This document shows, piece by piece, positions 8,291 to 8,453 of a stretch of DNA of 64,000 bases; the first letter of the stretch is position 1, and each line of letters opens with the position of its first letter. The stretch lies in the NCBI RefSeq assembly GCF_900142125.1, contig NZ_FQZT01000006.1:62001-126000 (forward strand), in the 5' to 3' direction. Under the pieces are notes generated by a model. It had not been told where the DNA came from. It ran no database searches and saw only the letters and a list, made by a program, of their open reading frames with translations. The position numbers were made by a program, and so were the translations under genes. This DNA comes from Malonomonas rubra DSM 5091. GTDB lineage: Bacteria > Desulfobacterota > Desulfuromonadia > Desulfuromonadales > Geopsychrobacteraceae.

Positions 8291-8306
8291 TGGCACGGGC
8301 GATGCT
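8291..8306 (+). promoter_or_regulatory. Sigma-54 promoter of glnK-amtB
   Basis: TGGCACGGGCGATGCT has GG at 8292-8293 and GC at 8304-8305, exactly the GG-N10-GC spacing of a -24/-12 element, with one mismatch in the -12 box. Transcription should start near 8317, leaving a leader of about 170 nt before glnK. This fits nitrogen control through RpoN and an enhancer-binding protein. Confidence 0.8.
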
Positions 8307-8353
8307 ACATGGGATGTCGTGCTACGCGATTGAGCGAGCTGATTTGATTTGAC

Positions 8354-8411
8354 CAGTCGTCGGGACAAAGACGTTTCGCATTTACGACTGATAAGGGCAA
8401 CGGCGCTCTTA
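8354..8411 (+). ncRNA. ANTAR-type two-hairpin antiterminator in the glnK leader
   Basis: Hairpin 1: CGGGAC (8361-8366), six-base loop AAAGAC (8367-8372), GTTTCG (8373-8378, with two G-U pairs), enclosed by CAGTCGT (8354-8360) pairing with ACGACTG (8384-8390). Hairpin 2: TAAGGGC (8392-8398), six-base loop AACGGC (8399-8404), GCTCTTA (8405-8411). Both loops have A at position 1 and G at position 4, the signature bound by ANTAR-domain antiterminators. The loop and 3' arm of hairpin 2 are also the 5' arm of the terminator, so the two structures exclude each other. Pairings were worked out by eye. Confidence 0.8.
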
Positions 8412-8453
8412 GCTCTGGAGGATTTTTTCAAAGAGTTAAGAGCGCCTTTTTTA
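8402..8453 (+). terminator. Leader terminator (attenuator) before glnK
   Basis: GGCGCTCTTA (8402-8411) pairs with TAAGAGCGCC (8437-8446), with an inner CTCT/AGAG extension, followed by a T-run at 8447-8452. It lies between the sigma-54 promoter and the coding region, so it must be overridden for glnK-amtB expression. Confidence 0.88.

Follow-up and report, generated by a model that had tools for sequence, protein, structure and literature searches.

In Geobacter sulfurreducens, as Ueki and Lovley are said to have described in 2010, a GnfL/GnfM and GnfK/GnfR cascade for nitrogen fixation combines sigma-54 with antitermination by GnfR. Pelobacter carbinolicus and Malonomonas rubra DSM 5091, the source of the DNA analysed here, belong to one broader group. 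The RpoN regulon of G. sulfurreducens includes a draT- and nifEN-containing unit. The gnfR and gnfK genes of that species are named in the literature (PMC7962754), also as regulators of nitrogen fixation. Dual-hexaloop RNAs targeted by ANTAR proteins are represented by EutV/eutP, NasR/nasF and AmiR/amiE (PMC3369931). In eutP, A1, G4, the closing pairs of P1 and the distance between P1 and P2 all matter, and leaders have been predicted at PII and ammonium-transporter genes, as has a nitrogenase regulon in P. carbinolicus (Ramesh et al. 2012, PMC3369931).

The glnK-amtB leader of M. rubra is of this known ANTAR-target type with lineage-specific twists, and its regulon is of the kind already predicted (PMC3369931). 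It shares with the described RNAs the two hairpins with A1/G4 hexaloops, the AC/GU closing pairs of P1, the overlap of P2 with a terminator and the presence of an ANTAR response regulator in the genome (PMC3369931). It differs from leaders of the EutV, NasR and AmiR type in having a sigma-54 promoter, and from the eut leaders in the linker between the P1 and P2 cores, which measures 10-19 nt across the leaders found here (5-12 nt in eut) and is spanned in the window by an outer P1 helix. Less expected are the atypical receiver of the regulator in this genus, the lack of a recognisable GnfK-type kinase, and the outer P1 helix that closes the long linker. We consider the leader to be an ANTAR-target RNA acting as a protein-dependent transcription antiterminator, with a probability of roughly 0.9. 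What we observed is structure, conservation and covariation, co-occurrence and linkage with ANTAR genes, and joint loss within the genus; protein binding, antitermination and the signal are inferred.

The window, by which we mean the whole stretch of 64,000 nucleotides (64 kb) that was analysed, contains the following features at this locus:

7455-8093, minus strand: divergent tetR-like regulator gene, the 5' neighbour (assigned by inspection; a similar gene occupies the same place in locus L178 of a relative)
8184-8232, no strand assigned: inverted repeat TTTTTTATGCAC-N25-GTGCATAAAAAA, a putative upstream activating site at which a sigma-54 enhancer-binding protein would act
8291-8306, plus strand: sigma-54 (-24/-12) promoter TGGCACGGGCGATGCT, of the form GG-N10-GC
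8354-8390, plus strand: P1 with its outer helix P1b (8354-8360 pairs with 8384-8390; 5-nt bulge on the 3' side)
8361-8378, plus strand: P1 core hairpin CGGGAC-AAAGAC-GTTTCG, with hexaloop AAAGAC at 8367-8372 and closing pairs AC/GU
8392-8411, plus strand: P2 hairpin TAAGGGC-AACGGC-GCTCTTA, with hexaloop AACGGC at 8399-8404, predicted to function as the antiterminator
8402-8452, plus strand: intrinsic terminator whose arms span 8402-8416 and 8432-8446, with T6 at 8447-8452; -27.5 kcal/mol
8467-8475, plus strand: ribosome-binding site GGAAAGGAG, recognised by sequence
8485-8823, plus strand: glnK, PII protein of 112 aa (PF00543, E 8e-32)
8866-10254, plus strand: amtB, ammonium transporter of 462 aa (PF00909, E 4e-101)

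A preliminary description of this DNA had proposed two adjacent hairpins with six-base A1/G4 loops (AAAGAC and AACGGC), and these are present, as is the proposed sharing of the 3' arm of the second hairpin, since the P2 3' arm (8405-8411) lies entirely within the terminator 5' arm (8402-8416). The GG-N10-GC promoter said to lie 63 bp upstream was also located, its start being 63 bp 5' of the outer helix P1b. Region 8291-8453 folds with a z-score of -3.6, and not one shuffled sequence folded equally well. Taken alone, 8392-8453 adopts the terminator fold at -28.9 kcal/mol, as against -14.1 kcal/mol with P2 enforced; these energies suggest that the default state is off in the absence of a protein, and in the folding model the terminator and P2 folds are mutually exclusive. 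Since the tetR-like gene on the 5' side is divergent, it has no use for this terminator, for which attenuation of glnK itself is the best reading. A pattern scan of both strands of the 64-kb window for two A..G.. hexaloop hairpins with an overlapping terminator returned this single site; shuffled sequence gave 0.12 matches per 64 kb irrespective of their quality, and none of 60 shuffles gave a match as strong. Further upstream, an inverted repeat of the form TTTTTnTGCA...TGCAnAAA was found in five of the nine members of the genus at a constant 59-60 nt from the sigma-54 promoter, and the repeat at 8184-8232 is probably an enhancer site.

Within the window the P1-P2 linker is 13 nt between the cores and would shrink to 1 nt with the outer P1 helix in place. 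Linker-shuffle z-scores for this helix were weak (mean -0.46). Pairing of the outer helix was also tested against other leaders, giving 12.6 versus 10.4 +/- 0.5 (0 of 10000 permutations), and a shuffled-upstream control agreed with this (z 4.4). The outer helix across the linker is present in the window, and we regard it as real in only part of the relatives.

Conservation of the loops in relatives was the refutation test that the preliminary description had set for itself, and the loops passed it: all 38 leaders keep A1 and G4 in P1 and also G4 in P2, and 37 of the 38 keep A1 in P2. The closing pairs are AC/GU without exception in P1, and in P2 are GC/GC, invariant or nearly so. Compensatory changes occur in both stems. 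The seed alignment, made from 15 leaders, had 95% of its cells paired and 19 two-sided changes where shuffles gave 5.7 (0 of 500); the full set of 38 gave 91% of cells paired and 49 two-sided changes compared with 15 (again 0 of 500), slid controls being far lower, and because these 38 are matches of a model built from the seed, their selection favours pairing somewhat. The model-fitted alignment A2 was too gapped, and alignment A3 was used instead. A sigma-54 promoter was found at nearly every homologous leader, which bears out the RpoN-type promoter proposed earlier. We also compared amtB loci of named genomes: in Desulfuromonadales most have the element 5' of glnK, and in alphaproteobacteria it is missing. 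Four matches from search R1 (L150, L151, L173 and L177) have neither an overlapping terminator nor a nitrogen-gene context and were taken as chance.

The proposal that this is an ANTAR-type leader gained support from gene distribution across the order. In a sample of 88 genomes of at least 90% completeness, the leader was detected at E 0.001 in 44 of 72 genomes with an ANTAR gene and in 2 of 16 lacking one (Fisher p 4e-4, phylogeny ignored), and at E 0.01 in 46 of 72 and 4 of 16 respectively (p 0.005, phylogeny likewise ignored). Narrowness of the model may explain the 28 of 72 ANTAR-positive genomes that gave no leader match at E 0.001. In 17 genomes an ANTAR gene lies within 5 kb of the leader, at 1.7-4.7 kb; two of the linked leaders, those of G021 and G077, match the model weakly but are located 5' of glnK. 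The order of genes in L178 is ANTAR regulator, histidine kinase, leader, glnK and amtB, and in both L178 and L179 the regulator and the kinase adjoin each other and glnK. In L178 the two genes, the kinase being of GAF-PAS type, occupy 2317-4478 between the tetR-like gene and glnK, and the corresponding slot in the M. rubra window (8094-8484) is empty.

We propose that transcription would start at the sigma-54 promoter, probably driven by an enhancer-binding protein bound to the upstream inverted repeat. The nascent RNA would by default form the strong terminator and synthesis would stop before glnK. When active, the single ANTAR response regulator would bind the P1 and P2 hexaloops and hold P2, making its 3' arm unavailable to the terminator, and polymerase would then read into glnK-amtB. 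Such an arrangement would probably place an ammonium sensor and transporter operon under double control, by sigma-54 initiation and then by ANTAR antitermination, across an order of environmental anaerobes.

The M. rubra genome (3.96 Mb in 42 contigs, listed as 100% complete) encodes one ANTAR protein, as the proposal required:

L001:1108-1671 (contig G000:C35), plus strand: ANTAR response regulator, receiver (Response_reg) plus ANTAR domain, 187-196 aa

Its closest PDB entries are Rv1626 and EutV. In the structure of EutV with RNA, G4 is contacted by R142, K149, E160 and Y164, and M172 acts as a plug (PMC8934654). We mapped the residue numbers ourselves, the numbering of the chain and that of the paper differing by two. 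On this basis R142, K143, K149, E160, Y164, M172 and R175 are identical in the M. rubra protein, EutV K147 is replaced by Arg, and R168, N173 and R177 differ. The receiver is atypical in the regulators of M. rubra, G005 and G006 (loci L001, L093 and L094), where Ala replaces the switch Thr/Ser and the MP after the Asp is lost. In M. rubra, G005 and G006 the receiver Asp and Lys are retained. Receivers of the other ANTAR families that we examined are mostly canonical.

The preliminary description had also drawn a parallel with GnfR of Geobacter, and this holds in part. Common to both are the RpoN-type promoters on target genes (here the glnK, draT and nifB leaders) and a response regulator with ANTAR output, likened by its Response_reg and ANTAR domains. 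The parallel is only partial because the receiver is atypical and no GnfK-type kinase was recognised in the genome, where the GAF-PAS histidine kinase of L178, serving as a stand-in query on account of its linkage to the ANTAR regulator and glnK in relatives, had a best match of 34% over 361 of 533 aa. The kinase adjoining the M. rubra ANTAR gene differs in type from the GAF-PAS kinase. A kinase 3' of amtB (10445-12370, CHASE4) was rejected as a GnfK-like partner, its domains being different. AmiR, an ANTAR protein whose pseudo-receiver is not phosphorylated (PMC3369936), offers a possible model for the M. rubra regulator with its degenerate receiver, although the latter, unlike AmiR, has kept the Asp and Lys. 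Perhaps the regulator of this genus has left two-component control. On that reading it lost the switch Thr and its linked kinase, and antitermination at glnK-amtB, draTG and nifB would be gated by another input (for example an AmiR-like partner protein), with sigma-54 activation as the other gate and the outer P1 helix bridging a linker in the RNA targets that is otherwise too long; we put this forward tentatively and regard it as doubtful. The atypical receiver would allow a test of whether phosphorylation is dispensable for an ANTAR response regulator.

Within the genus, the M. rubra genome, G001, G003, G005, G006 and G007 possess both nifB and the leader, and in G002, G008 and G009 nifB and ANTAR were undetected and P1, P2 or the terminator 5' arm is lost. 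The leader is therefore kept in six of six nifB-positive species and in none of the three in which nifB was undetected (p 0.012, that is 1/84, calculated by hand). These last three retain the sigma-54 promoter and glnK despite their decayed leaders, and amtB is retained 3' of glnK in L005 (G002). G002 and G008 have the NifU-like gene found next to the ANTAR gene in M. rubra, with no ANTAR gene beside it. Such co-absence of nifB, ANTAR protein and leader in close relatives amounts to a natural experiment.

Several points speak against an ANTAR reading: the long linkers, the missing switch Thr of the receiver, the 28 of 72 ANTAR-positive genomes in which no leader matched at E 0.001, and the failure to detect an ANTAR gene in the draft assemblies of G003 (99% complete) and G007 (80%), which have the leader and nifB, yet gave nothing in a search with a 62-aa query that was run without a positive control. 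The alternative that survives best accepts the ANTAR target and supposes that it is nearly constitutive in this genus, the regulator having lost its phosphorylation control, the element being on its way out and sigma-54 initiation alone setting expression. The altered receivers and the decayed leaders of G002, G008 and G009 would fit, as would G001, with its weakened P2 stem and an ANTAR gene (L108/L210) that is split between two frames, or appears so through a draft-assembly error. Against this, P1 is intact in six members of the genus and P2 with the terminator in five, and the RNA-contact residues of the ANTAR domain are largely conserved, and we think such a state unlikely.

An attenuator architecture is, as is generally known, common to many kinds of leader, and a metabolite riboswitch or control by some other RNA-binding protein might be considered. 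A search of the leader against Rfam returned no family above threshold, the best match being at chance level (E 1.2), and the A1/G4 hexaloops with their AC/GU closing pairs constitute an ANTAR signature that is accompanied by linkage to ANTAR genes, which makes this very improbable. A plain terminator or insulator preceded by hairpins that arose by chance is hardly credible, strong as the terminator is by itself, since the divergent 5' gene leaves nothing to terminate, the hairpins are conserved and covary, the scan puts their chance level near zero and the leader co-occurs with ANTAR genes.

Returning to the antiterminator reading, we searched the M. rubra genome for further members of the regulon, both by model and by gene. 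One further strong model match (E 5e-7) lies 5' of draT-draG (L149, minus strand, about 1440-1600), with a sigma-54 promoter, loops AAAGAT and AAGGGC that carry A1 and G4, and an overlapping terminator. The nifB leader (L224) carries a sigma-54 promoter and two terminators in succession, and a weak hairpin with an AnnGnn hexaloop overlaps each of the two. Judged from its sequence it is probably an ANTAR-type leader, and is graded no higher because the loop of its first hairpin is GACGTG. The nifB leader of G005 fully matches the pattern of the architecture scan. We place draT-draG, and probably also nifB, in one regulon with glnK-amtB, which would make the switch part of the control of nitrogen fixation.

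The motif TGGCAC-N6-TGCW has two matches in the 64 kb, compared with 0.35 expected. The second, at 22279-22294 on the minus strand, lies 44 nt 5' of an ORF at 21459-22235 that has, by eye, the look of a HAD-type phosphatase, and may be a chance match.
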